Source of the DNA: Eunapius fragilis
Taxonomy: Eukaryota; Porifera; Demospongiae; Spongillida; Spongillidae
Length of the DNA stretch: 64,000 nt
Direction of reading: 5' to 3'
Assembly (NCBI GenBank): GCA_963681505.1
Contig: OY811980.1
Span: 4,509,504-4,573,503, forward strand
Shown here: positions 25,575 to 61,074 of the stretch, piece after piece
How positions within the stretch are numbered: position 1 is the stretch's first letter
Layout: every line of letters begins with the position of its first letter
Translations under genes and position numbers: made by a program
The notes under the pieces: model-generated
Databases searched by the model: none
The model's input: only the letters and a program-made list of their open reading frames with translations
Told to the model about the DNA's origin: nothing

Positions 25575-26684
25575 CTAGAACGGAGGCGGTGCTTCTTCAG
25601 GGTAGGCATTAGGAGAGGGGCTTAGTCCAGTAGGAAATTGGAAGCCAATAGGAAGTGGAACTTGGGCTGCACTTGGATCAGGGTTATAAGGTACAAATGC
25701 ATTTGTAGGAAGAGTAGGGTACTGAGGTTGTGGGAGTGGCTGTTGTCCTGCAAGGGAGTGAGGTGGAACATTGCCAAGTGTGATGGGAATATTGGTGGCA
25801 GCATTGATGGCCCACGGAATCTCAGCTTCTACCAATAAATGATACTCAACAGTGATAATATCACAGTTGGCTATAGATGGAATAGCTGACAGAATAGCAA
25901 GCTGCTGAGTTGGTTTCCATTCGAACGTGGTTCGTCCTTCAATTTGTTCTGATCGCAGTGTACTTATCTGCTTAGTATTTGTACGCGTCTGGCCCTCGGC
26001 ACGGTAGGTTTCTGTTTTATTGATAGTAGCCCTGAGGTGCATTGTTCTTCCACTGCCATTTTCCAGCGATACGGACAACGGGATTCCTTCTCCGATGCAA
26101 AACCCCTTTCGGGGTATGTTAGTGGTCATGGTTATCTGAGGTGAGGCACAGCACAGGCAACAGATGGTTTTCACTTCCTCGAACTGAGCAGGGTTCAAGA
26201 GCTCCGGTGTGTTTATATCAACCCGGTCGACAACTTGGATAATTTCAGAAACGGTTTGATCCAATTGGGCAACGGCGGTCGAAATTTTTGCTTCGATCTC
26301 GTAGCGGATGTGTCCATGTTCTCCTACGAACGAACTGGGAATCCTTTCTGCAGAGCGCAGCGCCAATCTAAACGGGAAATTGTGCTGTCCGGAATTTAGA
26401 ATCCTATTGTGGGATTGCGTGGCGTCCCATAGTACACTCCCGTCGGTAATGAAGTCTTCGTGGGACTGGATGTGGCGAGTTTCTGTTCGCTGATATTGTC
26501 TGTTATGACGTGTCTCAGTTACTGTGTACGTTTCTGTCCAGTGAACGTCGGCGTATCCTTTCAGGGCGACGGAGATAGTGTTGAAGAATCTGGCTTGATC
26601 TATCACGACCGCAACAGTTCCTGTCACTTCTCCCGGAACTACGTAGGCACCGTGGCTGTTCAACTCCAACCTAATACTCGTCAT
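25575..26684 (-). CDS. arrestin domain-containing protein (ARRDC-like), second intact copy
   Basis: One frame of 369 residues, starting MTSIRLELNSHGAYVVPGEV. It is clearly a paralogue of 535-1824: LKGYADVHWTETYT, PSSFVGEHGHIRYEIEAKIS, CCLCCAS near residue 178, and GFCIGEGIPLSVSL. Both arrestin folds are complete. The C-terminal tail is shorter and lacks the APYQAPPPG repeats. The position matching the first paralogue's PPxY reads PQPQY, so the NEDD4-binding motif appears lost; PPPF closes the protein. As an ARRDC protein it would be a cytosolic adaptor for membrane cargo, but without PPxY recruitment of WW-domain ligases is doubtful. It is intronless like its paralogue, with two pseudogene copies 1.3-3.4 kb upstream on the same strand. 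Confidence 0.87.
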   Translation of the reverse strand: MTSIRLELNSHGAYVVPGEVTGTVAVVIDQARFFNTISVALKGYADVHWTETYTVTETRHNRQYQRTETRHIQSHEDFITDGSVLWDATQSHNRILNSGQHNFPFRLALRSAERIPSSFVGEHGHIRYEIEAKISTAVAQLDQTVSEIIQVVDRVDINTPELLNPAQFEEVKTICCLCCASPQITMTTNIPRKGFCIGEGIPLSVSLENGSGRTMHLRATINKTETYRAEGQTRTNTKQISTLRSEQIEGRTTFEWKPTQQLAILSAIPSIANCDIITVEYHLLVEAEIPWAINAATNIPITLGNVPPHSLAGQQPLPQPQYPTLPTNAFVPYNPDPSAAQVPLPIGFQFPTGLSPSPNAYPEEAPPPF

Positions 26685-29617: not shown

Positions 29618-30093
29618 ATATCTACTCGGTGGACGATTTGGATAATTGCAGAAAAATTTTTTTAATCGAAGTGGAAGAGACCCGTCGATATTCTCGCTTC
29701 GATCTCGTAGCGGATGTGGCCATGCGCTCCTACGAACGAGCTGGGGAGTCTCCCAGAGAGTAGGGTGAACCTAAACGGGAGAACGTACTGTCCCGGATTG
29801 AGGACCCTGTTAGGGACCTGCTCAGCTTTCCACAGCTCAATGACCTCGTTGATGTAATCTTCGTGAGAATGGAAGTGGTCCGTTTCTGTTCGCTGGTATT
29901 CTCTGCCATTTGGATCCCTACCATGTACGGTGCGGGTTTCAGTCCAGTGAACGTCACCGCATCCTTTTAGCGAGATAGTGATGGCGTTGTAGGATTTGGG
30001 CTCGTCAGTAACCACGACCACTGTTCCGGTCACTTCTCCGGGGACTACATACACCCCTTGGTTGTTCAACTCTAGCCTGAAGTCTTTTACCAT

Positions 30094-30340
30094 GGTGGCC
30101 CAATACGTCTTTGTGAGCGTATGAGCTTTAATTTCACGCTATAACGATATTCGTAGCGCACTTGTACCTTGCACGTGCGTCCTCAACTTGTGCATTGTTT
30201 ATTCTGGTTCCCTATCTAACCGCCACCGGATGTCAGATTTTCTGGGTAACCCTGTCACATAAAATTCCCTCGCATGGTTTTTTAAAACTCAGTTCTCATG
30301 CATGATGGTAGTACAACTATCCTCACGCAGCTACCTTACT
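30094..30340. other. 5' flank of the arrestin pseudogene
   Basis: No feature beyond cgcacttgtac/cgtgcg words was seen. Confidence 0.3.
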
Positions 30341-30648
30341 ATGGCATGTGATTTGTGCCAAAATTAATTTCAACTCTAAATTAGCGTGCGAAACACACAA
30401 CTTTGTGCGTGTAACGCGCAGCGCAATTAGTTGCGTGGGCGGCGAAAAGTTAATGGACGTATCCGATTCCGTATTTCGATAGTATCGTAATACACGGAAA
30501 TCTAGTATTGGTATTGTGGATCATTATCCGTATCATTTCATGGCGATACCGAGGGCAGGTAAACATTTGGGCGATCGCTGACGTGTAATTCGATGTGGGA
30601 TCTCTTGATTCACAAAGTTGTTTTTGTTGCAGTTTCACGGCTGCCATA

Positions 30649-30918
30649 CAGGGGCAATGCAGGGTTTTGGGGCGGGGTGGGGTGAGGGGAAAGCGACACG
30701 GCCCATCAGCAAGGGAGTATGGGGAGCGCTGTAAGCTCCCCCATCGGGGTCTGGGACTCCGCCCCAGCCGCTTTGAAACATTCGCACGTTTTCAGTCCGC
30801 ATCGGTAATTGCGATCGTTATGGCCTTAACTATCTATGTTATGGCGTAAGAATTCATGAATGTTTAATAACATAGGTTTTTTGGGGGGGGGAAGTATACA
30901 CCCCTAAATCCGCCTCTG
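30649..30918. mobile_element. MITE with CAGRGGCGGAT-type ends and 5-base duplication, copy 1
   Basis: Begins CAGGGGCAATGCAGGGTTTT and ends AATCCGCCTCTG. The flanks are CCATA (30644-30648 and 30919-30923). A 5-base duplication with hAT-like CAG termini would fit the hAT5 group (inference). It lies in the extra 895 bases of the left arm. Confidence 0.65.
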
Positions 30919-31411
30919 CCATATGAAATGGACTTAGCCCAGACAGTTCGTCGTTAGATGATGATAAGTCCTATGGAGGCTTTTGATTAGAGTGGGAAAG
31001 TCAACTTTTGTTGACCTATCGTGATAACCATCTACACCCTTGGGATCCCTGGCAGTGTTATGGGTGTAGAGGGTTCCTCAAAAGGCTGCCATTGGCCTAT
31101 GTAATTAAGGAAGGTATAACCCTGGGAGCAGTGAGTAGTGATAGTTAATTCCACAAGGTTGGCAGTTAAATCCATAGGGTTGAGGTGGGAAAAAGGGACA
31201 GTTTTTGAATGGGGAGGGGGGGGGGGGGGGGGTAGTTGGAGGGACATTAGAGTCTTGTGTGTTGTTGTTGGTGGGGTGCGGGTGGTTTTGAGGGGATTTG
31301 GAGACGGTTCTTGGCTGGTGCTTGGGACTTCCTGTGGATCTGGGTGCAGTGCTGGGTAATTTGGGTGGTGCCTGGGTTTTGGGGATTTGGTTTTTGGGTT
31401 TAAGTGATCAT

Positions 31412-32527
31412 CTAGGTGGAACCTGGTCTGCAGTTTTCTGCAGGGTTTTGGGTTTCAGACAGACCTCCGGATATCTTGTCCCTTTCTATGTTTGTTGCAT
31501 GGTGGTGGTTTCTAATTTTTTTCTTTAAAATTAGTTCATTATATGTAGCACCTCTATTTCTCTTCTGGCAAGTGGTTGTCCACTTCTTTTTGGTGTTTTC
31601 ATTTTCTTGTGCATCAAGGGTTCTCTCAATCTTTGTCTTCAATCCCATTTTCTTTATTCTTTAGGTGGCATACATTGGCTGCTGTAATCTTCATAATAGC
31701 CCAGTTCTGGATGTTCACAATTTCTTCTCTCAGTTCATCATCGGCTGCCGTTGTGGCATATGCCCTTGCCCCAACAGGGAAAATGCCATTGTTCTGGCAC
31801 ACCTGATTGAAGGTTTGGTGATGGCACAGCATCTCGTAGAACTTACTGGAGCTAGTGTATGCCTCACACACAGGATCCCACATTCCTTTTTCAATGTTGT
31901 CATGTAGTTTCTTGTCATCATCCTTCTGTGGTGCGAGGGCAGGGTTGTCTATTTCAGCAGGGAGTACATGAGTCAGAGGGGTTACATGGGACGGGGGTCT
32001 GGGGGAGGGAGTTCTTGGGTCAGCATGGAATTGGAGTTCTCAGCTGTGGTTAGGTTTGTCTTGGTTCAAGGACCTTTGGTTGTGGTGATGGGTCAGAGCT
32101 CTTTGCCTTCAGCAGGGGTTTCTTGGGTCGAAGGATTTGAATGAGGAGGGGTGGGAGGATGGGATTTGTAATGATAAGGGCTCCTTGTGGTGGTGTGATG
32201 GCTGGGTTTATCTCTTGGTTGTTATTAGAGGGTTGGTGTGGTAATAAATGTGTGTAGGACTTGTGGTGGGAGAGACTGTGTGATGTTTTCTGAGGTGGTG
32301 TGGTTTGTATCATTGAGTTCTATGTGTGTGAGGGACTGTGGTGTTACTAATGTTGCAATAGTGGTGGGTGCCTGAGTTAGGGTTTGTGGGGCATTGTTGG
32401 AAGATTCAGAAAATGGGCTGCATAAATTCTCCGGTACTATGAAAATGCTGTAGACCTTCAGGCTAGCTTTAATATCTCCATTGATAGTAGATTTGCTGGT
32501 GTTCAGGGAGGTAAGACTATCCCCCAA
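31412..32527 (-). pseudogene. unrecognised coding-like region, left-arm copy
   Basis: Mirror image of 44202-45299. On the minus strand, from 32527, a Ser/Thr/Pro-rich stretch is followed by a frame with MWDPVCEAYTSSSKFYEM and ADDELREEIVNIQNWAIM, then a Lys/Arg-rich stretch. The frame changes are shared with the other arm, so they predate the duplication or reflect introns I cannot place. Family not recognised. Confidence 0.35.
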
Positions 32528-33744
32528 ATATTACAGAGAAAGCAGATATAAGAACCAGGCTGAAGTGAAAGTAGTATAGCACCAGTTGGAATGCAGTGGA
32601 AGAGGAGGTGTGTTCTGCCTAAAAAACGATTTCATTATTGATTATAATACAGTTTAGCACAACAGATTTAAGATAGTAACAATAGTGTCCATCCTACTAC
32701 AAAGCCAGGAGGCTGTACACTGGTGGTGTGTACAGCACATACCTCAAGTGTAAGGCAACACACCTTAAGTATAAGTGTAAGGCATAACTGCTTTTTGAAC
32801 TTTACACCCAGGTACATGTAGTGTATAATTTGTACAACAAACCTAACTGCAATTGCTAACTTTAGTCTTGTTTTGTGCTTCAGCTTTACAATCTTTAATC
32901 TGCTGTGCACATGCACCCCTATCAGCTCGTACTACCACATTGCACATGTTTTTGTGTCCAGATCAGAGGTGTGATACACCACTATCAAAAAACTTTGACA
33001 AGAGTATGACTGAATTGTTAGCCCACTGAAGAAATCCATATGCACAATGCAATAATCTCTAATAAGAGTATTCTTTTTATTTGCAACCAGTTGTGCACAC
33101 CATATGATCAGATATGAATTGTGATGGTGAGATATTTGTTTTGCCTTTAGAGTATAAATTAATGCCACATTCCTGACTTGTAAGGGAGCAGCATACTGTC
33201 AAAGGCTTCTTTGGCTTTGTACTGCAGTGGCATATTGTGTAATTAAGGTGTATTGTTTTGAGCTGAATGTCCACCTGGGGGTGCAATTGTACACCCAGGT
33301 GGGCATTCAGGACAATAGGCATTAATTAACTTTACTAGAAAAAAAAAGAAATACTTACCATCTGTATAAGGAGCATGATAACATATCTGGAACAAAACTA
33401 TACTTTGTTTCATGCATAATTAAGTTGTAATAACTGCAGTGGCTAGTTATGTTCAATTGATTGGAGTTACACAATTCAAGGCAAAGCAAGACCCCATCAT
33501 GAGCATCTGAGTTGGGCAATGTATGCTGCCATGCTCTTCAATTATGTACCCCCTGTACTTCTGTAGTGTATTTCATGCATCTCGGTGCGCTGCATGATGG
33601 ACTAGTGCATCACAAAATGTCCCTCTTTTTTGTTCACTTCATGTTTGTAAGACCCTTCATCGAATACAAAAACAACATAAACACATGCACACACACACAC
33701 ACACACACACGATCTTTGCAAACCCAAACCAGAATGGCAGTGGA

Positions 33745-36700
33745 CTACGCACATCCAAATCCGCCATGCCATTCCAATGCTTTGTCCATAGCGGATGCAA
33801 ATGAGATGTAGGTTTTGTGTGATGCTGGTATGGATAGTTCCATTGAGCATGTTGATGCTGTGGGAAATATCCCACTGTCATGAAAAGTAAGAATAGGTTT
33901 TATAGTAGATGGTACATGATCCTCTCCGCAGAAGAACTGAAGCAAACTCTTCAGTTTGTCTCCTATAAATAAAGGTATGTTTATCTGTAAATAAAACACA
34001 AAAACAAAAACAATCATTATTTACCTGGACTCTTGCCAATATACTCTTTAAACCAACAATATGTCATTTCTTCTCCTACCCTTTTTTGACTGCAACGTGA
34101 AAAATTTACTTGGAACATGTTTTGAATCTGATCTGAAAAATAAGATGTTTTTTGCAAAAATTGATCAGGGCATGTTACTTATTTCCATCAAGTTTGCAGA
34201 CCTCTTAATTATGATACCTGTAGTAATGTTATTTTTAAAATAGAAAACTATCATGGTACATGAATGGTTATAAATGTTGAATTAAAATTCATTCACTTTA
34301 TTAAAAGTGTAAAAGTGAAAATACATACATGTACATATATGCATTTCCACCTGGTACATATACATGAACCAGGTGTTTACAAGAGAACGCAACTCAGGTT
34401 GAAATGAATTAACCACTTGATTTCATTCTTATATATAAATAGTCATTGATTGCATGAAACCCTTCAGCCTCTATTATTCAAGATTACAATTAGAGATAAA
34501 TTTAAAAATACAAAACATATTAATATACAGTTGGGCATTTGATAGCACTTACAAACACATTGTGAACAACAAAATAAAAACATTCAGATGGGAACGTTTG
34601 ACTTAAGAGCACATATTACTGTGGGATTGATTATATCAATGGTGTTATACCTGCATTGGGATCCTTCACATTGTTTGTGAATGTCTCTTCAAATAACTCA
34701 GAGTGAGCACAAATAGTGCTATGCACCTGTAGTGCCTTGAGACCCTCAATCAATTGGTCCAATTCAGCTTTGCAGTGTAAAATTACGTGCTGCATTGCAA
34801 CAGTTTGTACAATAATGTCTTTCTCAGCAATGTTTATTTCTGTTATATATATTCCACAATATATTCAACACATCAATGTATTTTTCTGTTTCATCCATAG
34901 TGTTCATATTCACTATCTGAATGCATAATGAAATGACCAACTATGAAAATTGACAGTGTATAGTAAACAAACAAAATTTAACAATGAGCAGAATAGTATA
35001 ATTAAAATGCATGATATATCCTCCTCCTCCCTCTAATTAATACTACCCCAAAATTACATACCTCGCTACACATCGTCTTCACATCAGAAGGGAGGTCCTC
35101 AATTTGGAAAACAATTGTTGACAGTTCACTACCACATATGTATTTGTATACTGGAAGGGACATTAAGTTAAATCCATTGCCACTTGATACAACAGAGATG
35201 GCCATAAGCTGTCCCATTTGTAAATAAACCCGATCCTGTGAAGAAATTCTATTTTTAGGTACAAGTGTAACTATGGTAGAATGATAACACCCCACATCTT
35301 GCATAAAGGTGTGACGTCAAATCAGTTTAATCATCGAACGACTCGGTACATAATACAGCGGCTTAAATAATGGTGTATACAACTAGTGCGCATGAGCATG
35401 ACACAGCACAAATAAATAATTCTACGCATGCGCTACACTACCCCCCCTCCTCCGAGATTTTAAGTGTCATAGATATTCTGTCCGTAGCGGTCTATTTTCT
35501 TCTTCTGCCGAACTGGCCTCAACCTTTCAGGTTCAGCTTGGGGAGGCGCTACATTTTGCTGTGGTGTCTCCCACTCAATCACAAGTGGTTCCGGATCATC
35601 ATCTTCTCGAGACTCTTTCTCTTCCATAACGTCATCCTCATCTGAAACCGTTGCTTGAAAATACCCATCATTTTCATCCTCCCCTGAGGTCCCCTCCTCC
35701 TCTGTCTGTGGCAAATCTTCCTCCTCCACTGAAGTATCCTCCTCCTCTGTCTGTGGCGGGGCTACATGAGGCTTCAGCCTATCAAAATGCACAACAGTAC
35801 GCTTCCGAGGAGAATCCCTGTGCTGAAGTAAATACAGCACATCACCCAACGGCTTCACAACCTTGTAAGGACCTTGCCAATAACAGTGCAACTTTGGTGA
35901 CTTACCTCTCGGAACAGCTGGACAGTGTAACCATACTAGATCACCAACCTTGAATGGATGCCCCTTTGCTGTCTTGTCATATAGTGTCTTCTGGCGTCTT
36001 TGTTGCATTTCCATATGGCTTCGTACCCTCTGATAAGCTGTCTCCAAGTGTGTTCTTAGATCCAAAGCATACTGATTGACCTGTTGGGGTGCAGAAGCTG
36101 GGGGAAGACCAAACATAACATCTGCTGGAAGGCAAATTTCCCGCCCAAACATCAAATAGAATGGTGTACACCCAGTTGACTCCTGTACACTAGTTCTATA
36201 CGCCATCATCACTAGCGGAAGACGCAGATCCCAGTCGTGTTCATTTTCGGAAGCTGCAATGCTAAGGAGGTCAAGCAGTGTACGATTAAATCGCTCAACA
36301 AATCCATCAGACTGGGGGTGATATGGGGATGTCCTTGTCTTAGACACACCCAACAGTTGGCATACTTCCTTCAATAGAGAAGATTCAAAGTTACGACCCT
36401 GATCTGTATGCAGAGTATCCGGAACCCCAAAACGAGAGACAAATTGGTGCACGAACAAATCCGCAACAGTTTTTGCCTCCATATTAATCATTGGATAAGC
36501 CTCTACCCACTTAGTAAAATAATCTCCCACAACTAACACATACTTGTTACCTCTGGTGGTACTGGGCAATGGACCCAATATGTCCATGGCAACGCGTTGT
36601 AGTGGATATCCTACCAAATCAGACTGCATAGGAGCCCTTCTTGCTTGGGATGGTGACTTTCTGGACAGACACTTTTCACAAGCCCTGCACCAATTCTCTA

Positions 36701-39700
36701 CATCGTGTCGTTGGCCAGGCCAGTAGAAGCGCGAACGAATCTTTTCCATGGTTTTCTTTTGACCAAGGTGACTTCCAGTAGGTGCATCGTGGAACTCCTT
36801 TAGAATACTCTGTACAGAGAACTTTGGTATGACCAATTGAAGATGCCTGTTCTGTCCTTTCCCAGGAACGTCTTCCCAACGCCTGTAGAGGACCCCTTCT
36901 TTAAGTAACAGATGGCTCTTCTGGGACCATAACGTCTGCAACCAGTAGCTTCCATGTCTGGGAAGGGTGGGAGGAAATGCATTATCTCTCACCCAAGATA
37001 TCACCTGCTCCAGATCAGGATCTCCTTGTTGTAATTGTTTTGGGTCTCCGGCAGACAACACACAAACGCTCTCCCTCTGGCCAATACTGCTGCTAGGAAG
37101 GGGAGGGGCTGATGGCTCGAACCCACATTGTTTACACGGAAGCCTTGAGAGTGCATCAGCGTTACCATGACGCTCTCCAGGTCGATGCTCAATGACGAAA
37201 TCATACTCAGCAAGAATATCCAACCAACGCGCAACTTGGCCCTGCGGCTCTTTGTGCGGACGATGAAATGGCGGCCCCAAAGGTAGGATCGAAAGTTTCG
37301 AACGGCCCACACAACTCCCAGCATCTCCCGCCGGGTTGCACAATACTGGCGCTCCGCCTTTGTGAGCACGCGGCTGGCGTACGCAATTACTCGCTCTCCC
37401 TCCTGGGACAACACTGCGCCAAGTCCTTCTTGACTAGCATCCGTGTCCAATATGAACATTTTGTCGAACTGAGGGAATGACAAAATAGGAGGTGACAACA
37501 ACTTATCTTTCAACAAGATAAACGCTTCGTCGCACTGCTTGGACCAAAACCATGGTTTGGACTTTTCCGTCAGAGCATGAAGAGGAAAGGCTATCCGAGC
37601 AAAACCAGAAATGAACTTTCTGTAGTAGGAAGCAAATCCTAAAAATTGGCGGAGAGTGTCATGATTATGTGGCACAGGCCATTCGCGGACAGAACCAGTT
37701 TTTCCTGGGTCAACCTCCACGCCCTTTTCGGATACAATGTACCCCAAGTACTGTACGCTCTTACGTAATAGTTGGCACTTGCTTGGCTTTACCTTCAGCC
37801 CCGCCTCTTTCAGCCTTCGCAACACGTCTGCCAGCCGTTGAAGACGTTCACCCACTGTCTGACTGAAAATAATAATGTCATCTAGATAAACTAGACAAGT
37901 GGTCCAACAAAGACCCGACAACACAGAACTCATTAGTCTTTGGAACGTGCTGGGGGCATTGGTTAGCCCGAACGGCATTACCCGAAATTGGTGGAGCCCA
38001 AATGGTGTGATAAAAGCAGTCTTCTCCTTGTCGTCCGGATTCATCTCGACCTGCCAGTAGCCACTTGCTAAATCAATGGTAGAAAACCATTTCGCTCCCC
38101 CGAGGCTGTCCAAAGCATCGTCTATCCTGGGAAGCGGATGCATGTCCTTCTTCGTTGCCTCATTTAGACGGCGAAAGTCGACACAGAACCGGAACGAACC
38201 GTCTTTCTTTTTTACCAGCACTATAGGAGATGCCCAGGAGCTCTCAGAAGGCTCTATTATGCCTTGGTCCAGCATGTTGTGAATCATCTTCTGTACCATG
38301 TCCCGCTGATGAAACGGTAACCTGCGAGCTTGCTGTCGAATGGGTGGGGCATCACCAACATTAATTTTGCGACGCAATAAACCTGTACGTCCCAGGTCCC
38401 CATCCCCAACCGAAATAGCGTCTGAAAAATCATACAACAAATCTGTCAGCTGGTTTTTCTCGCTTACAGTTAAGCCATGCACATTACACAGAAACTGTTC
38501 AACTGACTTATTAATGGCCTCTTGGGACCGGACAACTGGTTTCCTGTCCAACGACGGCTCCACTAAATTCACAAAATCAGCATCCTGCAAGGGAAACATC
38601 TTACCTACCTTTTCATCAGCGTACACAGTAACAGGTACAGCTGACAAATTTAACAACTGTATCGTTGCGTTCTTCCCTGACAGGATTGGAGACACAGAAT
38701 GTGCAGCAAGTAACCCACCATGCCGATCCGGAAACTCTGGCTTGGGTTCAAACAATCCACAGCCACTGTTGAATGCACCCTCTTCTGCGTTGGCATCCAG
38801 GTGAACAGAAAGGTGAACTTGATGGAAGGCAGGAATAACGGTGGTCTCCTGTACCAGCACGTGACATGTAGAACTACATTCGCCGGCACACAACTGCACC
38901 GGACGTGGGTGACCTGCCAATGTTAAAGTCTTGTTGTCCATGTTATTAATAACACAATGACATTGTTCGAGAAAATCTGTACCCAGTAAACACTGTTGCG
39001 TCATGTCTCGCACAACCAGGACATTGTGTGCTCCCACATAGTCTCCCACCTGTAGAGTCACATACACCTGACCACATAGAGGAAGACTCTCACCGTTAAC
39101 TGCCATTACAGGACACCTGGCCTCTTTTAGTTCCAGTTTGCTGTTCTTCACGGCCTCCTTCCAAACGTTCTCATGCAGCAGGGTAACCGACGATCCCGTG
39201 TCTACTAACATGGAAACAGGGTGGCCCTCCACGAAACCTTTCAATGTTAGAGTGCTGGCAACTGCAGAGGTATGCTTAACTGACCTTTCGTCACTGTCTT
39301 CAGTAGAACGCCTTAACGGACAACCCCTGCGCACGTGGCCTGCTTTCCCGCAATTCCAGCATACTGGACGCTTCTTCGCTCTTGCTGGCCGTTTCTCCGC
39401 CTTGTCCAGACGTAACTTACTCAACTGCCCTGACAACGCTGCCACTTGCGCCACTAAGTCCTGATAGCTGCCACTCCTTGCAGAAGAGAAGAGAGACGCA
39501 CCTTCGGCTTCCGAAGAGACAGCGCTCTCCGTGGTATTAGCGGCTGCAGTTTTTCCTGCCTGGAAACTTTTCTGGGCAGACTCCACCGACTCTAACCGGC
39601 ACGCCAAGGCAAGAACAGCTTCCAATGTGTCCAGCCCTTCCTGCAATAGCTTCAGCTGTATAGAAGGTGAAATAATACCACGAATAAATTGGTTACGCGC

Positions 39701-42614
39701 AACTTCTAGTCGTTCCCTAGACTGCCACAACGGGTAAGCCCTATCTGCTAACATGCGCAACCTTGCCGAGAACTCTATTAAGGACTCCGTCTGTTTCTGC
39801 TGCGCTGCATGGAACTTCCTCTGCCAATCCAGCTCTACCCCTAGCGGAGCATACTGTCCCTCGAGACATTTCTTCACAGCTGCGTAGTCAACCCCGGTTT
39901 CTACATCCAACAAACCCATTTGACTTACAATACGGAATGGCTCATCCTCCAACAAAGAGACCAGTTCCTGGCCTTGCTTATCGTTCGGAACTCCGGCTTC
40001 CTTAAAGTAGAGCTCGATGCGCTGAATCCATATAGCAAAGTCAGCTCCCTTTCCCGCAAATCGCGAAGGTGGCCGCACGCTAAACCTGGTGGTTCTTACG
40101 CCTGCTCCTTCCTGCTCCATCCCACTTCTGACACCAGTGTGACGTCAAATCAGTTTAATCATCGAACGACTCGGTACATAATACAGCGGCTTAAATAATG
40201 GTGTATACAACTAGTGCGCATGAGCATGACACAGCACAAATAAATAATTCTACGCATGCGCTACAAAGGTAACAGTTGTATTTTAGAACATACACATCGT
40301 AACATTTTTACAATATAAGAAAGTATACCTTCAATGCAATGACATTGTGCCGTATGGTGCCTTTGTTCCATTAAGCATCTTTAAATTCTTTGCATAATAT
40401 TGTGAAGAATTCGCGAGTCAACCCTCCTGCATCAATCCCATTCTCAGAATCAAATATAACCTACAAACATTCAACAACCATGCAGAACACTATCAGAAGT
40501 TAACTAAGTGGTGTATTTTACCATTTTAAAACAATGTGCCAACACATGTAATAAGTACATACCACCATATTTTTCGTAGGTGTGATATTGTGCTTTAGAG
40601 CATCTTCCATTACTTGACTTCTATGCACTCTCATTTCAAAATCACCATCCTTAATTTGGCTTTTGAGATGGTTAATGACATCAGCCATACTATATTGCAA
40701 GCTTAGGTAAAAAATATGTACACATGCAATAGCATTTACCACGAATCATGATCCTCCCCCAGCTTATAATCAAAGCATATTCCAATTCACTGTCTTCATC
40801 CTGAAAATTGAACAGAAAGTCAGTAGACTCAATGTATCAATCACACCATTGTTTTACATGATATTCATAAACACTATCATCATCCAATTCAAATCATTAG
40901 GATGAAATAGTAATGTATCCATACATGCCATGCATCATAAACTTGCATCTAATACATTGATACATGACTCGGATAGAAAAGGTCGAGTGTCTTCATTATC
41001 ATGCCTATTAATTGGAGCATTTAATACATGACATAATAAACATTTGAATATATGACTGAAAATACACTAACTGCATGTGTGGTAAAATGGAGATTTTCCA
41101 ATTTCAAACTCAATTACCATTACAAATTTAGTATAATGCAGCATTGAAGATAAGCTTTCCATGAATTTGAGATCAAGAAGCAATCGTCATACAAATTACT
41201 ACCACATTAAGCCAAATGGATTACCTGATTACTAGATCATTACTAATCTTATGGATATTGGGTTTGTTGATGCCAACTCAACACAACAATACAAGAAAAT
41301 ATTATCCATGCAGAGCAAGGTGTAGACTATAGATAAATAATATTCTCACCTTTTAATAATCAGATTACTTATACCCTGTGCCACACTGATTTGTGGATTC
41401 TGTGTGATGAATTTAAATGTTAGAATAAGGCATCATGTCAGGAAAAAGCACTGTTGCCATACTTGTGTTCGTAAAATGCTTGTATTTAGTTCAAAAGATA
41501 CATGCATTACAGTACAGTGATTAATGTGTGCAATCTCCCTTCCCTCAATGATCAACAGGCTGCTTTCAGTGTTACTGTTAACTCTTATTTAGGTCTATCC
41601 ATAACTTACACTCTGCATGGTGTATGTGAGACTTGTTGGGCCTATCTAGCTCTTCACCTTTATAGACATGGCCACCTACTCACAGAGTATTAGGAAGTAT
41701 TCTATTTTAATATTCAAAAAAGGGGCAGAAGTGGTTAAGTGATATGAAATCTTGTTCCCATACAGATTTTTTGGCTTCTCTCACTTTCATTTTGTGCATT
41801 AGAATCAATATGTCAATATTAGCATAAAAATAATGATAATTTCAAATTTGGTAAATGCTTACACTTCTTGGTAAAGTAATGTTTGGTAAGTAGTCATCAT
41901 CATCATCTGAGTCATCCATTCTAATAATAGAATAAGTTTATAACCCACATGCAAAGCTTAATTAAACCATACTCTAAGGTACTGTATATAAGCCTCCTTA
42001 TCCTCTACCACCACTAACAAAAAATGGCTCGTGTTTAAATGTGTACATCTTTAACCGCAAATGTCTTCACAAATTTGTTGAGCATTTTCGAATGGCACCA
42101 TGAATAATAGATATGGAGATTTCACACAAGACATTTTACTTCGCTGGGAGTGGAGTGAGGAGGAGGCTTAACAATTTTAATCACAGTTAATTACCATCAA
42201 CTTACTGAGGTTTTTGACATGATTTCATGTGTTCACATAAGTCTTTCATACACATTCTGGTGTTGCACTTAAAGCAAACCTCTTCTGGCTGGGGAGACTC
42301 AGCCTACATAAACAAAAATAAGTTAAAAGTAGTACATGTACATTTTGACCTACCATTGCTGAGATAGATTTATCATGATGCATAACGTCTCTCTGCAGTG
42401 GTCGAATGTACAGAATACTACGATTTATAATGTCTCGTAGGTATTTCACAGTTAAACCACATTGTGGGGGTGTGACGATAACTAATTGGACACCACTTGC
42501 TACCAGTAATGTATACCCACCACACTGCAATAGCATAGGAAATGCATTCATAATTATTTCGTGCATATGAATAGAGTCGCCATCTTGGTTGAATATCAAT
42601 TCAATGTTAGCCAT
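33745..42614 (-). CDS. G2E3-like protein with zinc finger and HECT-like domain, nine exons, interrupted by an LTR element
   Basis: Hand-placed exons: 42614-42354, 42303-42206, 41920-41863, 40800-40740, about 40689-40563, 40460-40329, 35235-35062, 34822-34651, 33962-33745 (stop TAG). Exon 1 carries the N-terminal block of G2E3-like proteins (GGYTLLVASG, GLTVKYLRDI, ILYIRPLQRDV). Exon 2 is a Cys/His finger (CFKCNTRMCMKDLCEHMKSC), exon 3 acidic. Exons 5-6 start the HECT-like domain (FEMRVHRSQVMEDALKH, IDAGGLTREFF). Exons 7-9 continue it (YLQMGQLMAISVV, AELDQLIEGLKALQ) to the end (GIFPTASTCSMELSIP, EWHGGFGCA). HECT enzymes transfer ubiquitin through a Cys; TASTCS near the C-terminus is the candidate. 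Most joints keep frame, but exon 4 to 5 does not by one base, and a TAA (40371-40373) lies in exon 6, so this copy may be dead. The LTR element at 35310-40265 sits in the exon 6-7 intron. Confidence 0.7.
35310..35437 (-). repeat. 3' LTR of element 2 (128 bases)
   Basis: Matches 40138-40265. It holds a full CRE palindrome TGACGTCA (35312-35319) and ACGCATGCGCT (35424-35434). Confidence 0.93.
35460..40120 (-). pseudogene. Gag-Pol polyprotein of element 2, RNase H deletion with frame change
   Basis: The frame from ATG 40120 encodes Gag (FAGKGADFAIWIQRIELYF), a CCHC knuckle (CWNCGKAGHVRRGC, about residue 252), protease (MLVDTGSSVTLLH, about 304), RT (MPFGLTNAPSTFQRLM; YLDDIIIF near 743) and the first part of RNase H (LDTDASQEGLGAVLSQ, about 893). 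At about 37265 the frame changes: directly after HFIVR the sequence jumps to KEPQGQVARWLDIL. The stretch that should hold the RNase H TDH..L motif is missing. The downstream frame runs to 35460 with HGNADALSRLPCKQCG, the integrase finger, the DDE core (MDILGPLP, HTDQGRNFES, SDGFVERFNRTL) and an acidic tail. RNase H should be inactive and Pol split in two. This family also left the fragment at 16930-18411. Confidence 0.93.
40138..40265 (-). repeat. 5' LTR of element 2 (128 bases)
   Basis: Promoter LTR for the minus-strand element. It carries a CRE-type TGACGTCA (40140-40147) at its internal-side end and the GCATGCGC core near its outer end. Confidence 0.93.
40252..40262 (-). promoter_or_regulatory. 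NRF-1-like core ACGCATGCGCT in the 5' LTR
   Basis: Shares GCATGCGCT with the other two LTR families in the window, close to the LTR's outer end. Function inferred only. Confidence 0.4.
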
Positions 42615-43098
42615 GCCGAGGGATCCTAGCTAAAACGAGAGCTATAGCCTCGTTTCTCTCGTAGTTCCAGATCCTTATACCAGCGCCTTGGACGAAAGTG
42701 TCCGCCCACAATTTCACCATATGTACTTAGAAGGGCAAAAAAGTACAAAAAGGTAGCGTTGAGGTACCTTATATAGGACCAGTTCGATCAGACAATCAGT
42801 GCATAAATAGAGGGATTGAGCAGGGGTTTGCAGTGCACGCCCACATAACCGGATGGCTCCTTGCCTCGTTTATATGAGCACCCAACGTGCAATCCAAACA
42901 AAACATGTTGAGTTCGATCCCTCGCAGTGAGACTGCCAATTCGATGAAGCTGTGGTCTCTTTCAGGCCCACAAAGCATTCCTTGAGCACAGAAACTCGGG
43001 CCTTGATACGTCGCGAACTATAACACTTCGGAAAGATGTTTTAGCTCTAGGGCAGTCAGAGGCAGTCGGAAAAACAAGCTTTATAACCTCGATTCTAC
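42615..43098. other. spacer between the HECT-like gene start and the right arm
   Basis: About 480 bases that should contain the promoter of the minus-strand HECT-like gene and possibly that of the outward-reading right-arm region. No TATA box or CpG cluster stands out. Confidence 0.35.
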
Positions 43099-43406
43099 AA
43101 AAAGAGGGACATTTTGTGATGCACTAGTCCATCATGCAGCGCACCGAGATGCATGAAATACACTACAGAAGTACAGGGGGTACATAATTGAAGAGCATGG
43201 CAGCATACATTGCCCAACTCAGATGCTCATGATGGGGTCTTGCTTTGCCTTGAATTGTGTAACTCCAATCAATTGAACATAACTAGCCACTGCAGTTATT
43301 ACAACTTAATTATGCATGAAACAAAGTATAGTTTTGTTCCAGATATGTTATCATGCTCCTTATACAGATGGTAAGTATTTCTTTTTTTTTCTAGTAAAGT
43401 TAATTA

Positions 43407-43900
43407 ATGCCTATTGTCCTGAATGCCCACCTGGGTGTACAATTGCACCCCCAGGTGGACATTCAGCTCAAAACAATACACCTTAATTACACAATATGCC
43501 ACTGCAGTACAAAGCCAAAGAAGCCTTTGACAGTATGCTGCTCCCTTACAAGTCAGGAATGTGGCATTAATTTATACTCTAAAGGCAAAACAAATATCTC
43601 ACCATCACAATTCATATCTGATCATATGGTGTGCACAACTGGTTGCAAATAAAAAGAATACTCTTATTAGAGATTATTGCATTGTGCATATGGATTTCTT
43701 CAGTGGGCTAACAATTCAGTCATACTCTTGTCAAAGTTTTTTGATAGTGGTGTATCATCACCTCTGATCTGGACACAAAAACATGTGCAATGTGGTAGTA
43801 CGAGCTGATAGGGGTGCATGTGCACAGCAGATTAAAGATTGTAAAGCTGAAGCACAAAACAAGACTAAAGTTAGCAATTGCAGTTAAGTTTGTTGTACAA
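43407..43900 (+). other. possible small exons in the arm, unrecognised
   Basis: On the outward strand, a Cys-rich stretch can be read near 43410-43460 (CPECPPGC) and an open block near 43780-43880 (CNVVVRADRGACAQQIKDCK). They look more coding-like than the surrounding DNA, but no family or reliable splice pattern emerges. A mirror copy lies in the left arm. Confidence 0.25.
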
Positions 43901-44201
43901 ATTATACACTACATGTACCTGGGTGTAAAGTTCAAAAAGCAGTTATGCCTTAACTTATACTTAAGGTGTGTTGCCTTACACTTGAGGTATGTGCTGTACA
44001 CACCACCAGTGTACAGCCTCCTGGCTTTGTAGTAGGATGGACACTATTGTTACTATCTTAAATCTGTTGTGCTAAACTGTATTATAATCAATAATGAAAT
44101 CGTTTTTTAGGCAGAACACACCTCCTCTTCCACTGCATTCCAACTGGTGCTATACTACTTTCACTTCAGCCTGGTTCTTATATCTGCTTTCTCTGTAATA
44201 T

Positions 44202-45299
44202 TTGGGGGATAGTCTTACCTCCCTGAACACCAGCAAATCTACTATCAATGGAGATATTAAAGCTAGCCCGAAGGTCTACAGCATTTTCATAGTACCGGAG
44301 AATTTATGCAGCCCATTTTCTGAATCTTCCAACAATGCCCCACAAACCCTAACTCAGGCACCCACCACTATTGCAACATTAGTAACACCACAGTCCCTCA
44401 CACACATAGAACTCAATGATACAAACCACACCACCTCAGAAAACATCACACAGTCTCTCCCACCACAAGTCCTACACACATTTATTACCACACCAACCCT
44501 CTAATAACAACCAAGAGATAAACCCAGCCATCACACCACCACAAGGAGCCCTTATCATTACAAATCCCATCCTCCCACCCCTCCTCATTCAAATCCTTCG
44601 ACCCAAGAAACCCCTGCTGAAGGCAAAGAGCTCTGACCCATCACCACAACCAAAGGTCCTTGAACCAAGACAAACCTAACCACAGCTGAGAACTCCAATT
44701 CCATGCTGACCCAAGAACTCCCTCCCCCAGACCCCCGTCCCATGTAACCCCTCTGACTCATGTACTCCCTGCTGAAATAGACAACCCTGCCCTCGCACCA
44801 CAGAAGGATGATGACAAGAAACTACATGACAACATTGAAAAAGGAATGTGGGATCCTGTGTGTGAGGCATACACTAGCTCCAGTAAGTTCTACGAGATGC
44901 TGTGCCATCACCAAACCTTCAATCAGGTGTGCCAGAACAATGGCATTTTCCCTGTTGGGGCAAGGGCATATGCCACAACGGCAGCCGATGATGAACTGAG
45001 AGAAGAAATTGTGAACATCCAGAACTGGGCTATTATGAAGATTACAGCAGCCAATGTATGCCACCTAAAGAATAAAGAAAATGGGATTGAAGACAAAGAT
45101 TGAGAGAACCCTTGATGCACAAGAAAATGAAAACACCAAAAAGAAGTGGACAACCACTTGCCAGAAGAGAAATAGAGGTGCTACATATAATGAACTAATT
45201 TTAAAGAAAAAAATTAGAAACCACCACCATGCAACAAACATAGAAAGGGACAAGATATCCGGAGGTCTGTCTGAAACCCAAAACCCTGCCGCCATGAAA
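44202..45299 (+). pseudogene. unrecognised coding-like region, right-arm copy
   Basis: Reading outward: MGDSLTSLNTSKSTINGDIK and a Thr/Pro/Ser-rich stretch in one frame (44202-44504), a Pro-rich stretch in a second (to 44679), then a well-formed third frame through KDDDKKLHDNIEKGMWDPVC, SSSKFYEMLCHHQTFNQVC and DDELREEIVNIQNWAIM to a stop at 45103. A Lys/Arg-rich segment follows in the first frame (ERTLDAQENENTKKKW). The switches suggest frameshifts or introns. I do not recognise the family. Presence in both arms, each reading away from the HECT-like gene, is the main clue to its role. Confidence 0.4.
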
Positions 45300-45488
45300 T
45301 GATACGGATAATGATCCACAATACCAATACTAGATTTCCGTGTATTACGATACTATCGAAATACGGAATCGGATACGTCCATTAACTTTTCGCCGCCCAC
45401 GCAACTAATTGCGCTGCACGCACAAAGTTGTGTGTTTCGCACGCTAATTTAGAGTTGAAATTAATTTTGGCACAAATCACATGCCATA

Positions 45489-45954
45489 ACCTCAGTTCCA
45501 AGTTTAGCAAGCAAGGCAACTACAAGTACGCTCCGTACCGGTATCAATGATGGTTTGGATCCCAACTGAGCTGTTTCTTCACAAGAGCTTCAACCGTTCA
45601 GCAATATGCTGCCAGCACGACCTCAACATTTAGCCGGATGGACCAATCCGGCTAAATGTTGAGGTCGTGCTCTGCTTAATTCAATAGGGTGTACTGTTTG
45701 GGACCAGAATAAAAAGAGTGTGTCATGTGCCTACTAGCCTCGTTCCCAGGCCCCATTATTAAATTTACATATTTTTTTCCGCCTACAAGATAGTTATTGA
45801 AACGTCGCGATAATTTCACCAAATTATTCGCACCATTAACACTGCGGCTGGACACAATTCAGATAATTGGCTAATACGGTATACCTTTTGAATAGTGTAA
45901 AATAATTTACTTTTAGAGCTCATTATAAATCGTACTTTTTGTGACCCACATTTC
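45489..45954. other. flank outside the right arm
   Basis: A hairpin at about 45620-45672 (gcacgacctcaacatttagc and its reverse complement around gatggaccaatccgg) is visible. No gene. Confidence 0.4.
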
Positions 45955-51190: not shown

Positions 51191-51890
51191 CTTCATTGAT
51201 TTTTATTCATACCCGATTATGAGCCGTATAACATGTTAAGTAATCCATCTTGATATGAGAGGGAGGTTGCAAAGGTACGACATACCTTTCAGTGACCTTA
51301 ACTCTTTTCGCCGAGCGAGATGCACGTTCAGGACTATGGCAATATCGCTGTCTTTTTTCAGGATCTGCTCGATACCTTGCATGTCGAGAGGTCCGATCCT
51401 TTTCAGGATCTGAGGGGGCTTTAAGGGGCGGCCGAAATAGAAGAGAGCTAGGTTATTAATTGTCGCCCCAGCGCGATCGAACCCACGAACGCATTTTGTA
51501 TCGGGCCAGAAGCAGAGAGCACCCCCCCCCCCATCCGCCTACTAATCGCATCTCGATACCACGGTGACAATTAGGAGTTTTCCGGCTATGTATGACGCAT
51601 GTATACGTTCTGCTTACATGTGTTTAACGCATGTTGTAACCATGTTGTATACAGCGTTGGATAACGAGTGGAAGGAGACTGACATCCGCTCGAGGGTATA
51701 TTGGGTGGATAACACCTATGTATAACGCCGTATGTATAGATGATAACAAGCGTTAAGCGTAAAACGAGATTATAACAAGCGTATGTAGAGTGAAATCATT
51801 TGTATATATAGGGTATACGATTGACGCGTTATGATGCATGCATTCTGGTTTATTGACGAGTACGAATAAACGTAATTTAATAATAATAAT
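51191..51890. other. spacer before Gypsy element 3
   Basis: No gene is supported. A short C run is at 51520-51531. tttttcaggatctg is duplicated near 51355 and 51400. Confidence 0.3.
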
Positions 51891-52004
51891 TGTAGTGTCC
51901 TAGTCACTCGTTTAAGCCGCTACAAGAGAGGTGAACATCTCGCTGCGTGACTGACTCAAAAAGTGATCATTGTTTTCCGCCCATGCGCTAACATATTACA
52001 ATTG

Positions 52005-52035
<31 letters not shown>

Positions 52036-52043
52036 ATATCACA
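51891..52043 (-). repeat. 3' LTR of element 3
   Basis: Contains an expanded (AC)n of about 32 bases near 52003-52033. Its NRF-1-like core has one changed base (CGCCCATGCGCT at 51978-51989). Confidence 0.92.
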
Positions 52044-52119
52044 TTTCCCCCTCCCTAAAGTTCAACCCCCTCTAATGTCCTAACATGTTACATATACTAC
52101 AGCATGAGTTTAATCACCA

Positions 52120-55100
52120 TTAATGACCATAATAGTCTGGAGGATTCCTCACTCTTGTCGACCGACGCACTGGTGCTGAAATAGGCACTTGTGGCTGTGG
52201 TATATCATTGTCCTCTGCACTCGCTACAGGAATACCAACAGTAGGTGGAATAGAGGGAGGTATTTCAGGGGGAGCTTGAGCACAAGGCTCAGATGAAGAT
52301 GAATCAGCAGTAGGAACAGCTCTTTCGTCAGCGGAACTTGGTGAAACCACAGGGGTACTTGACGGACCTGATGTAACGTCATTAGGGTTGTCCACATAGA
52401 CATCATCACTAGCGTCTACTTGAGAGTTGTGGCGAGCCCTCAGATGGTCTATATGTCTGCGGACTACTCCACTTCCAATCTTAACAGTATAGGAGAGAGG
52501 CCCGGTAACAGAGACAATGACTCCTGGAATCCACTCTTTGGGAAAACGAAAATCCCGAACGTATACTAGGTCACCTTCAACAAACTTACGCTCACTGATA
52601 CCCCGAGTATCATGATCCTGCTTCTGCGCGGCTTGGCGAGACTCCACTCGAACAGCAAGGTCAGGATGCAAAATGTCAAGTCGGGAACGAGGGCGACGAC
52701 CCAGCAAAAGTTCAGCCGGTGACGAACCCGTGGTACTGTGAGGAGTCAACCGGTACTTAAACAAGAAACAAGATAGTTTTGTTTCAATAGATCCTAGCTT
52801 TTGGTGTAGAAGACCCTGTTTGAAAGTCTGAACGGCTCTTTCGGCTAAACCATTTGTCGAGGGATGATAGGGGGCAGACTTGACGTGGATTATACCATTC
52901 TGACGCGTAAACAATCTGAACTCTTCACTCACGAAAGCCGGCCCATTGTCTGTTACTATCTTCCGTGGTACCCCATGAATTGCAAATATGCTCTTCAAAC
53001 GCTCAATGGTAGGTACCGCTGATATCGACTTCATAAGGTGAACCTCGAGCCACTTTGAGTGGGCATCAATCAACATAAAAACATATGTCCCATGAATGGC
53101 CCTGCAAAATCAATATGCAACCGAGACCAGGGTTCTTGGGGCCATTCCCATGGATGGAGAGGAGCCACTGGTGGCAGGAATCGAGAAGACTGACAAGTGT
53201 CGCATTGCTTGACTACGTCCTCTATCTCTTTATCCATATTGGGCCACCACACATATCCTCGAGCTAAGCCTTTCATCTTATTAATCCCTGCGTGCGATTC
53301 ATGCAATTCTGCCAAGACTTGTTGCCTGCCCTGTGGTGGAATGATAACTCTAGCTCCCCACAACAAACAACCATCCAAAACACTCAACTCATTCTTTCTC
53401 TGCTGATAGGAGCTCAAATCGTCACCTAGATTTCCGCCAGGCCACCCACTCTTAACAAATCCTCGAACTCTCGACAGAACTGGGTCTCGGTCCGTCCAAC
53501 CCCTAATTTGGCTAACCGTAATAGGAATGGTTGAGAGTAAGTCAAGTAAGGTAAGAACATCTCCAGGAGTGGATATGCAACTAATGGATTGTGGGCTGGG
53601 CAGACGGCTGAAGGCATCAGCATTGGCATGTTGAGCTCCAGACTTGTATCTGATTGAGTATTGGTACGTGCTAAGTGCTAAAGCCCACCTCTGTATTCTA
53701 GATGAGGCCATAGGTGGTATAGCCCTATGTTCTCCGAATAAATAGATAAGTGGTTTATGGTCAGAAAAGATTGTAAAAGGACGACCATACAAGTACTGAT
53801 GAAATTTGGAAACACCAAAGTATATAGCCAAAGCTTCCTTATCCAATTGGGAATAACCCTTTTCAGCAGATGACAAGGTACGTGAAACAAATCCTATAGG
53901 TCTCTCCGATCCATCTTCCATTTCGTGGGACAGTACTGCCCCTATCCCATAGGGTGAAGCATCACACGCCAGAAGGATTGGCTTGTGGCTATCATAATGC
54001 ACCAAAAGAGCTGACGTCTTCAACATGTTTTTCGCAGCAGCAAACGCCTGCTCCTGTTCAGATGTCCAACTCCATTTCTGCTGTTTTCTCAACAATTGGT
54101 ACAAAGAGGACAGCTTGGAGGCAAGTTTTGGCAAAAACTTGGAATTATAATTAAGCAGTCCCAAGAAAGATTTTAATTCTGTGATATTCTTGGGTGATTG
54201 TGCTTCGTTTATTGCCTGAACCTTGGCATCGGTAGGGTGCAACCCTTCTCTATCAATACGATGACCCAAATATTCTACAGACGAAGCCATGAATATACAT
54301 TTTGCCTTTTTAAGCCGCAACCCACTTTCATCAAGTTTACTTAGAACCTTGTCTAAAGTATGTATGTGTTCCTCTATCGATGCACCCGTTACCAGAATGT
54401 CATCAACGTACACCACTGTGTGATCTATACCCTGTAGCACACATTCCATAGCCCTCTGAAACATGGCTGGGGCCGATGCCACCCCAAAAGGTAATCGGTT
54501 GTACTCAAACAGACCTTTATGCGTGTTAATAGTAGTATATGCTTTGGAGGCATCATCTAATCTCATCTGTTGATAAGCATTAGTCAAGTCAATTTTTGAG
54601 AATAAGCGGCCCCCTGACAAAGAAGCAAATAAGTTCTCTACTCGAGGAACAGGGTACGATTCCAATCTGGATGCCTGATTCACCGTTAGCTTATAGTCCC
54701 CACATATTCTAACTGTCCCATCCACTTTCATTATTGGCACTATTGGTGCTGCCCAATCCGCAAAAGGCACAGGTCGAATCACCCCAGACGTCTCTAGACG
54801 TCTCAACTCCACCTCAATCTTATCCTTTAGGACATAAGGCACGGAACGGGCTTTATAAAACCTTGGACCAACCAGTGGATCAACTGAGAATTTAGCAAAA
54901 ACACCCTTCAAGGTTCCCAATTCATCCTGGAACAACACTCTATGCTTCTCCAACAGCTCTTCCAGGTTCTTATTCACCCGTACATTGTGAATCTCCCCCC
55001 AATCAATCTTAATAACTTGCAACCAATTCCGGCCCAATAAGTTTGGTCCCTTTGAATTCACTACTAGCAACGGTAAACGGGCTGTTTGAGACTTATATGA

Positions 55101-55890
55101 TACTACCACTTCTGCCACTCCCGCAATAGATAACGGCTCTCCTGTATAGGTGCTTAATCGAGTTGCCGTAGGATGCAACGTTGGCACTCCCTTTTCACAC
55201 GATCCCCACAAATCCTCAAACATTCTTTTGCTGATTACAGTCATAGCAGCACCCGTATCTAGTTCCATATCAATTCTAGGGTACTATGAATGGTTGCACT
55301 TTGGGCAAACCCAACACATTTAATGTCTGTAAAACCTCTTCCTCATTCTCTTCGTCGTTTATTCTATGAGTTTTCTCTGCAGCATCTTCTCTCTTGTAAG
55401 TAACACCTCTACACACTTTGGTTAAATGCCCGCGTTTACCACATTGACTACAGATTGCTCCCTTAAACCTACAAGATGAGGCATAATGGTTTCCTCCACA
55501 TCTGTAGCATTCTATTACTTTTTAAGCCTTATCCTTTGGTCTACTTCCTACCGCATTGATCACGGGGGGTACTGGCAATACAGTGGTAGGCACAGAGGAT
55601 TGTAACTCAATTGCATGTTTATTTGCAGATTCCACTGCTATGGCTATTTGAAATGCCCTTGCGAATGTTAACTCAACCTCTCCTAGTAGGCGCCTCTGAA
55701 TACGCTCGTCCTTCACCCCGCAAACCAAACGGTCTCTTAATACGTCCTGCAGGGTATCACCAAATGCACAATGTTCTGACAATTGTCTTAAAGCAGCTAC
55801 AAAATCCGCAATGGACTCCCCTTCTCCCCTTACACGGGAATTAAATTTGAACCGCTGCATAATAACTGAAGTAATAACCCTCGTCGCCAA
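52120..55890 (-). pseudogene. Gag-Pol of element 3, several breaks
   Basis: The first frame (55890-55522) is the second half of Gag (FKFNSRVRGEGESIADFVAA; LRDRLVCGVKDERIQRRLL), stopped by a TAA at about 55519-55521. The frame then continues through two CCHC knuckles ([13 protein letters not shown] and [14 protein letters not shown]). A frame change precedes protease (MELDTGAAMTVIS), which begins the long frame to 53070: RT (LPFGVASAPAMFQRAM; YVDDILVTG), RNase H (LACDASPYGIGAVL; FSDHKPLIYLF; HANADAFSRLP) and the integrase finger (H...H, CDTCQSSR). One lost base near 53075 moves the integrase core (LIDAHSKWLEV, VTDNGPAFVSEEF, TNGLAERAVQTFK) into the frame that ends at 52120. The first catalytic Asp (HIDFAGPF) is before the break. 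The family differs from elements 1 and 2. Confidence 0.92.
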
Positions 55891-55893
55891 AAA

Positions 55894-56034
55894 TGTAGTG
55901 TCCTAGTCACTCGTTTAAGCCGCTACAAGAGAGGTGAACATCTCGCTGCGTGACTGGCTCAAAAAGTGATCATTGTTTTCCGCGCATGCGCTAACATATT
56001 ACAATTGACACACACACACACACAATATATTACA
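55894..56034 (-). repeat. 5' LTR of element 3
   Basis: Matches 51891-52043 apart from CA length and a few substitutions. Confidence 0.92.
55981..55992 (-). promoter_or_regulatory. NRF-1-like palindrome CGCGCATGCGCT in the 5' LTR
   Basis: The best-preserved copy of the core in element 3. Compare 23519-23530 and 40252-40262. Confidence 0.45.
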
Positions 56035-58159: not shown

Positions 58160-58210
<51 letters not shown>

Positions 58211-58593
58211 ACACACACACACACACACACACATACACACAAACCAGTGCTACTTAGAAATAGTGGTTCTGGTGGGTATGACTGTCAGTTTGCTATGACC
58301 AGATGCAAAGCCACCCATGGAAGTCACCCATGGAATATTGACTCTCATGTGATGGTGGCAAATAGATAGGCTAATGCCTTTGTGTTTAGGACTCTGCCAT
58401 TAAGAGACATATGGTCACATACCCACCTGAGGATCAGAGCAGTTGGTGTCATTTTTTTTTTGGATCTGGGGCAGTGCTACTTCCAAACATGTTACAGACC
58501 TGTGAGTTCCATAGGCTTTTGCATTTGGTCATATGTGTAGCAAACTTGACAGTCATCCTCGCCAGAACCACTAATCCTAAGTAGCATTGGAAT

Positions 58594-58664
<71 letters not shown>

Positions 58665-59852: not shown

Positions 59853-59892
<40 letters not shown>

Positions 59893-60256: not shown

Positions 60257-60328
<72 letters not shown>

Positions 60329-60420: not shown

Positions 60421-60452
60421 GATCTGCTCACCTAGAGATGGAAGCCTTGCAT

Positions 60453-61029: not shown

Positions 61030-61074
<45 letters not shown>

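Follow-up and report, generated by a model that had tools for sequence, protein, structure and literature searches.

A HECT-type ubiquitin ligase gene in a putative IS3EU/GingerRoot-type transposon of the sponge Eunapius fragilis and a derived copy with long inverted arms

In the demosponge Eunapius fragilis, a stretch of 64,000 nucleotides (assembly GCA_963681505.1, contig OY811980.1, positions 4,509,504 to 4,573,503; hereafter the window) contains a block at 30340-45488 in which two near-identical inverted arms enclose a gene for a HECT-type E3 ubiquitin ligase. This block is very probably an insertion of a large transposon of the IS3EU/GingerRoot type that carries the ligase gene. An element-free site, an integrase-bearing relative with a 6-bp target-site duplication (TSD) and the proximity of HECT and integrase sequences in the genome all bear out the proposal, made in an earlier note from the letters of the window, that a large transposon might carry a ubiquitin-ligase-like gene. 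Judged from its sequence, the window copy is a derived one: it lacks 9.8 kb that include the integrase, its HECT gene is truncated, and in place of the native right end it has the left end copied in inverted orientation.

The limits of the insertion emerge from an empty site. When joined, the flanks of the window copy (30040-30339 and 45489-45788) match one element-free place on the same contig (C10:4784037-4784667), which aligns all 600 joined bases at 83% and lacks the element. The empty site reads ..CAACTACCTTACCTCAGTTCC.., and the window reads ..CAGCTACCTTAC, then TATGGC...GCCATA, then ACCTCAGTTCC.., so that the insertion comprises 30340-45488. The left flank (30328-30339, plus strand) ends at the insertion point with ..CTACCTTAC and the right flank (45489-45500, plus strand) begins with ACCTCAGTT..; in comparison with the empty site, ..CTACCTTACCTCAG.., AC alone is duplicated. 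The alignment thereby demonstrates, at the level of sequence, an insertion with an empty paralogous site. Of the two explanations offered in the earlier note, the transposon is favoured by this site, while an inverted segmental duplication around a host gene is contradicted by it. The same note had found neither a transposase nor a target duplication; the integrase is indeed absent from the window copy, and the 2 bp AC are duplicated there. The empty site itself is supplied by a paralogue of duplicated, Arrestin-N-bearing sequence beside the transposon: an Arrestin-N coding segment (29665-30138) adjoins the element and has inverted relatives in the window (repeats 534-1543 and 25661-26666).

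The nearest relative, on contig C3 (C3:7360089-7378424, 18.3 kb), is colinear with window positions 30340-35310, 40265-42629 and 42625-43068 at 95.9-97.4%. Between the second and third colinear blocks it holds the 9.8 kb that are absent from the window copy (C3:7367480-7377299), and these encode an integrase-core frame (PF24764, E=2.9e-76; rve, 2e-08) with a frame upstream that gives weak helix-turn-helix (HTH) matches. The C3 copy contains the same HECT gene as the window, in divergent orientation to the integrase, and its ends, TATGGG..CCCATA, are bordered by the 6-bp TSD CTGCAT. In the window, the junction of the internal deletion (42625-42629) has 4-5 shared bases, and a leftover piece of the native right subterminal sequence of ~470 bp (42625-43098, plus strand), equivalent to C3:7377300 to ~7377770, extends from there to the join with the inverted arm, where ~3 bases are shared.

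Direct search and self-BLAST both yield the inverted pairs 30340-30545/45488-45290 and 31440-33630/45289-43099, the latter at 99.8%. The core alignment comprises 2,188 matches, 2 substitutions and 2 one-base gaps (2,190 aligned bases), and the outer alignment 199 matches, no substitution and one 7-bp gap, a likeness that cannot be due to chance. The near-identical mirror-image arms of ~2.39 kb described in the earlier note are therefore real, with 2,188 of 2,190 core bases identical, except that the left arm is the longer one. This arm (30340-33630, plus strand, 3,291 bp) represents the native left transposon end; it begins with TATGGCATGTGATTTGTGCC and is 95.9% identical to C3 over 30340-35310. 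The right arm (43099-45488, minus strand, 2,390 bp) represents an inverted left-end copy in place of the native right end and extends to the very tip. Their difference in size is due to 894 bp at 30546-31439 (plus strand), which are absent from the right arm; since this segment is found in the C3 relative, it was the right arm that lost it. Moreover, the arms differ from each other by 2 substitutions in 2,190 bases and each of them from C3 by 27 in 2,172, and hence the inverted arm is recent or has been homogenised. The inverted ends of C3 are imperfect and ~0.5 kb long, and its right subterminal sequence is different, which makes the 2.39-kb arms a secondary feature. They are thus not the terminal inverted repeats of the family, as had been considered, but the outcome of a later event that duplicated the left end in inverted orientation. 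Both carry the terminal variant TATGGC. As to further copies, which the earlier note expected to be informative, the arm search of the genome (40 of 541 candidates scored) gave the C3 relative with the same HECT gene and its 6-bp TSD, but no second full-arm inverted pair. As to a possible coding role of the arms, the single arm frame that was scanned matched no Pfam family at scores above the cut-off. Further genome matches of the inner arm are at 69-80%, and positions 30987-32449 within the left arm have many at 66-80%, several of them on C2 at 7.9-9.9 Mb.

What remains of the HECT gene occupies 33745-42614 on the minus strand, as do all of its exons. The exon at 33754-33954 encodes the C-lobe, includes the catalytic TC motif (FPTASTC) and matches PF00632 (E=5.2e-5); a profile built from three C-lobe exons gives weak matches to AREL1 and UBE3A (E 0.005-0.04), the cysteine being aligned with that of AREL1. 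At the other end of the gene, an exon at 42206-42303 contains a C-x2-C...H-x3-C zinc-finger-like stretch, named by its motif with no family match obtained, and 42354-42614 is the rest of an N-terminal exon that is homologous to the HECT gene of a second transposon family (see below). The N-lobe exons are identified mainly by homology between the two families, in addition to one weak match (E=0.074). As previously measured (115 and ~480 bases), the stop lies 115 bp off the left arm and the apparent ATG (42614) 485 bp off the right arm. The open frame of C3 runs on upstream of this ATG (L010:7099-7968), which need not be the natural start. As it reads, the window gene is broken relative to C3 by the deletion that removed its 5' part, by a long terminal repeat (LTR) element that splits it, and by a frame change, with a one-base gap in exon 34652-34912. 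The designation 'G2E3-like' comes from the earlier note and is kept here as a provisional one; G2E3 and the window gene are probably alike in a HECT C-lobe with the TC motif, and fish G2E3 proteins presumably have an N-terminal stretch with YIRPLQ.

The second family is defined by an identical HECT C-lobe exon common to loci on C5, C4, C8 and C20. For at least 14.9 kb its copies on C5 and C4 match each other at ~99%, falling to 96% in the final 0.8 kb, and their right flanks are unrelated. The C5 copy contains an uninterrupted integrase frame of 521 amino acids (PF24764, 3.5e-83), in which the second D and the E are 36 residues apart, and the C-lobe of this family scores 34.2 bits with PF00632, above the cut-off. 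For this family one of the two ends, TATGAAGCG, was set. Between the HECT genes of the second family and of the window and C3 copies, amino acid identity amounts to 28-32% in the N-terminal exon, 31% in the zinc-finger-like exon, 50-52% in the exon with DAGG..REFF, 32-34% in two middle exons and 44% in the C-lobe. These six matches (E <=0.003) follow the same order in both genes; many further short matches (E ~0.001-0.5), a few of them in the LTR element, were not used. The placement of HECT gene and integrase differs between the families. Together with the homologous HECT exons in the same order, this argues for a long association and not for one capture. The left side of the second family ends at a gap of 200 N in three of four copies, and on C20 the right side has a run of 2,500 N. 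HECT-integrase elements contain or border on runs of N at L011:3778-3977, L043:3588-3787, L047:4076-4275 and L048:6376-6575 (200 each) and at L050:892-3391 (2,500), and these elements therefore seem to break the assembly.

The association extends over the genome. The integrase, taken as PF24764, has 155 genome matches, of which 150 were listed (150 of 475 candidates scored) and used for all association counts. The 139 matches of PF00632 fall into 65 loci, and 25 of these lie within 20 kb of a listed integrase, compared with 1.76 expected. Several matches fall into each of 23 loci. Two of these loci consist of a pair of separate C-lobe exons close to an integrase; the remaining 21 resemble conventional multi-exon HECT genes by our own classing, and their contigs have either no listed integrase or none less than 140 kb away. 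With the C-lobes of the window and of the second family as queries, 84 distinct exons were found; for 32 of them a listed integrase is no more than 20 kb away, compared with an expectation of 2.27. Relative to the nearest integrase, 12 of the 32 are divergent, 10 are on the same strand with the integrase downstream, 9 on the same strand with it upstream, and 1 is convergent. A 24.3-kb element at C16:4424811-4449123 has paired ends with HECT near one and integrase near the other, both reading outward as in C3. Taken together, these counts indicate that HECT and PF24764 integrase sequences occur together recurrently in this genome.

The termini point in the same direction. With up to 3 mismatches, the 28-base terminus occurs 27 times in forward and 29 times in reverse orientation, and the reversed control not at all in either (0 + 0). 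Seven convergent pairs closer than 30 kb are present among these 56 ends (0.11 expected), five of them on C16, C4, C12, C13 and C14, and a listed integrase lies within 20 kb on the inner side in 8 cases and on the outer side in none; ten of the ends have a HECT exon within 20 kb on the inner side, and two have one on the outer side. Both flanks could be read in four copies, and three of these have a 6-bp TSD, namely CTGCAT in the C3 copy, CGTTTT in a 15.2-kb element with integrase (C2:13089828-13105028, of which 599 bases lie outside the part read) and TAGAAA in a 429-bp copy on C8; the exception is the window copy. One pair of ends, C19:2145534 and C19:2155885, is in direct orientation and has nearly identical outer flanks, a local duplication carrying a transposon end.

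Several observations weigh against this interpretation. The target duplication of the window copy is 2 bp (AC) and not 6 bp, which may be due either to the loss of four of the six bp on one side or to an original duplication of 2 bp. The C-lobe exon of the window reaches 23.5 bits with PF00632, just under the cut-off of 23.9. Of the 84 HECT exons, 52 have no listed integrase within 20 kb, two lie outside a terminus instead of inside, and the C2 element has no recognised HECT exon in the parts read. In addition, the expected values of 1.76 and 2.27 assume uniform placement while the copies are in part near-identical duplicates, so that the enrichment is overstated to an unknown extent, and the C16 element is known from coordinates alone. 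The C3 copy has a scaffold gap of 200 N (C3:7373778-7373977) between HECT and integrase; the joined C3 flanks, however, match 16 places on C3 from base 1-2 to 368-370, spanning the junction at 250 (best 40 of 445 candidates), and the copy thus fits a single insertion in repeated sequence despite the gap. Finally, substitutions between window and C3 amount to 1.66% in exons and 2.23% elsewhere, a non-significant difference (p=0.29). With rates this alike, the two copies give no proof of being under selection at present; their exons hold fewer gaps than the rest, and conservation between the families would be the better argument for selection.

Among the alternatives, the weightiest is that the HECT gene is accidental cargo of single elements and not a regular component. 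Most of the 150 listed integrases are without a nearby HECT match, the C2 integrase belongs with them as far as its element was read, and the layouts differ between families; yet two diverged families share homologous HECT exons in the same order, 32 of 84 HECT exons are near an integrase where 2.3 are expected, and none of the 21 conventional-looking HECT loci shares its contig with a listed integrase less than 140 kb away, which renders this explanation rather unlikely. Another possibility is that the transposon insertion is real but that its inverted arms were created by assembly error, given how often scaffold gaps occur around the HECT-integrase elements of other loci. The window is free of N, the arms differ by the 894-bp indel, the 7-bp indel and the 2 substitutions, and the flank joined to the right arm is verified by the empty site, making such an artefact quite improbable.

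A new kind of transposon with two native 2.4-kb terminal inverted repeats around a HECT gene would have exactly the form of the window copy, in which both arms share TATGGC. It is nonetheless very improbable in view of the want of another full-arm pair among the 40 candidates scored out of 541, of the short, imperfect ends of C3 with their different right subterminal sequence, and of arms that are far closer to each other (2/2,190) than either is to C3 (27/2,172). The idea of an inverted segmental duplication around a resident host HECT gene draws on the near-identical arms, the multi-exon gene and the flanks duplicated on C10, but it is scarcely credible for a block that is missing as a whole from a paralogous site, with the break at the TATGG ends, and whose ends recur on other contigs with 6-bp TSDs; it would require that the paralogue had lost the block by a precise deletion. 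Polinton/Maverick-like elements of 15-20 kb, treated briefly in PMC5753468, are alike in size, integrase, long inverted ends and 6-bp TSD. The C3 termini (TATGG..CCATA) set them apart, and no polymerase, capsid or packaging-ATPase family occurs in the C3 frames scanned, which were part of the total (2 integrase frames and 10 others, 3 of the latter HECT); this assignment is as improbable as the preceding one.

For the preferred reading, an IS3EU/GingerRoot-type transposon with a ligase gene, the following course of events can be proposed. The integrase, supplied by another copy in the case of the window element, would join both TATGG ends to a staggered target. The inverted arm could have arisen by faulty repair in place, in which the ~3 shared bases served to join the broken right side to a copied left end. 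That the copy runs exactly to the tip would follow from a template, namely a left end, on which the integrase had previously acted by cutting, and a target duplication trimmed to 2 bp fits faulty repair as well. The ligase might aid the element in trans; its likeliest task would be to tag either a host restraint factor or the complex of integrase and DNA for removal, with the N-terminal and zinc-finger-like region choosing the substrate, a last step that is rather less likely than not.

Beyond the window, the HECT ligase may be a long-standing working part of an animal IS3EU-type lineage, kept as its families diverged and rearranged, through which the element would exploit ubiquitination by the host so that a silencing factor, a repair factor or the integrase complex of the element itself is eliminated; many lone annotated 'G2E3-like' HECT genes would then be transposon genes. 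We regard this broader proposition as evenly balanced. If true, a class of animal HECT genes would have to be re-labelled as mobile cargo instead of host genes, and gene-family counts in annotation would change. Transposons with host-directed enzymes are informative, as are, for instance, those of fungi with DNA demethylation genes, and a ligase travelling with a DDE integrase would give a handle on how transposons control host defence or repair via protein turnover. Moreover, the window copy documents the replacement of one transposon end by an inverted copy of the other, yielding a foldback-like derivative.

Other features of the window are distinct from the transposon. The LTR element that splits the HECT gene (35309-40265, minus strand) is a retrotransposon of the Ty3/gypsy type, a label derived from its domain order, whose 129-bp LTRs are identical; of its two long frames, which overlap, one is for protease, reverse transcriptase and RNase H and one for an integrase, and an H2C2 match is present. 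Because the C3 copy is without it, this element was inserted later. An element with 134-bp direct end repeats (97.8%) is situated at 51888-56024, and parts of C3:7353828-7359224, a region immediately beyond the C3 transposon, resemble its body at ~96% identity. At the end of the window, 57018-58028 and 62990-64000 form a further inverted pair (1,011 bp, 99.7%) within related repeats (57105-63910). A scan of the window with Rfam gave no match at gathering scores.

With regard to known systems, Foldback elements consist of long inverted arms around a middle part. The window copy differs in that its arms are a secondary duplication of one end, the ends of this transposon being ordinary elsewhere. 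The earlier note knew of no standard superfamily with such a layout, which no longer holds: IS3EU/GingerRoot elements, as the main text of PMC10045372 describes them, have TA..TA termini, usually 6-bp TSDs and an integrase-like DDE transposase without the HHCC domain, and thus match the sponge elements in ends, TSD and enzyme type, the three features on which this provisional filing rests. An rve-type DDE integrase is found in the C3 copy and in the second family and is absent from the window copy, and TA..TA termini of the form TAYGG..CCRTA are present in both the window and C3 copies. Neither integrase examined (C3, C5) has a match to the H2C2-type (HHCC) domain before the core, weak HTH-type matches being present instead. 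Fungal IS3EU families, according to the main text of PMC12730594, have TAYGG..CCRTA termini, 6-bp TSDs and genes for a TET/JBP dioxygenase and an alpha-kinase beside the transposase, so that passenger enzymes are a known habit of such elements. Neither of these two papers uses the words 'HECT' or 'ubiquitin' in its main text, and no report of HECT cargo in such transposons was found among open-licence papers, although an earlier description in Repbase or Dfam is possible. Hence, the sponge elements share termini, TSD and DDE type with IS3EU/GingerRoot but are distinguished by their large size (15-24 kb), by imperfect ends of some hundreds of bp, and by a passenger that is a HECT E3 ligase, where the fungal families carry a dioxygenase and a kinase.

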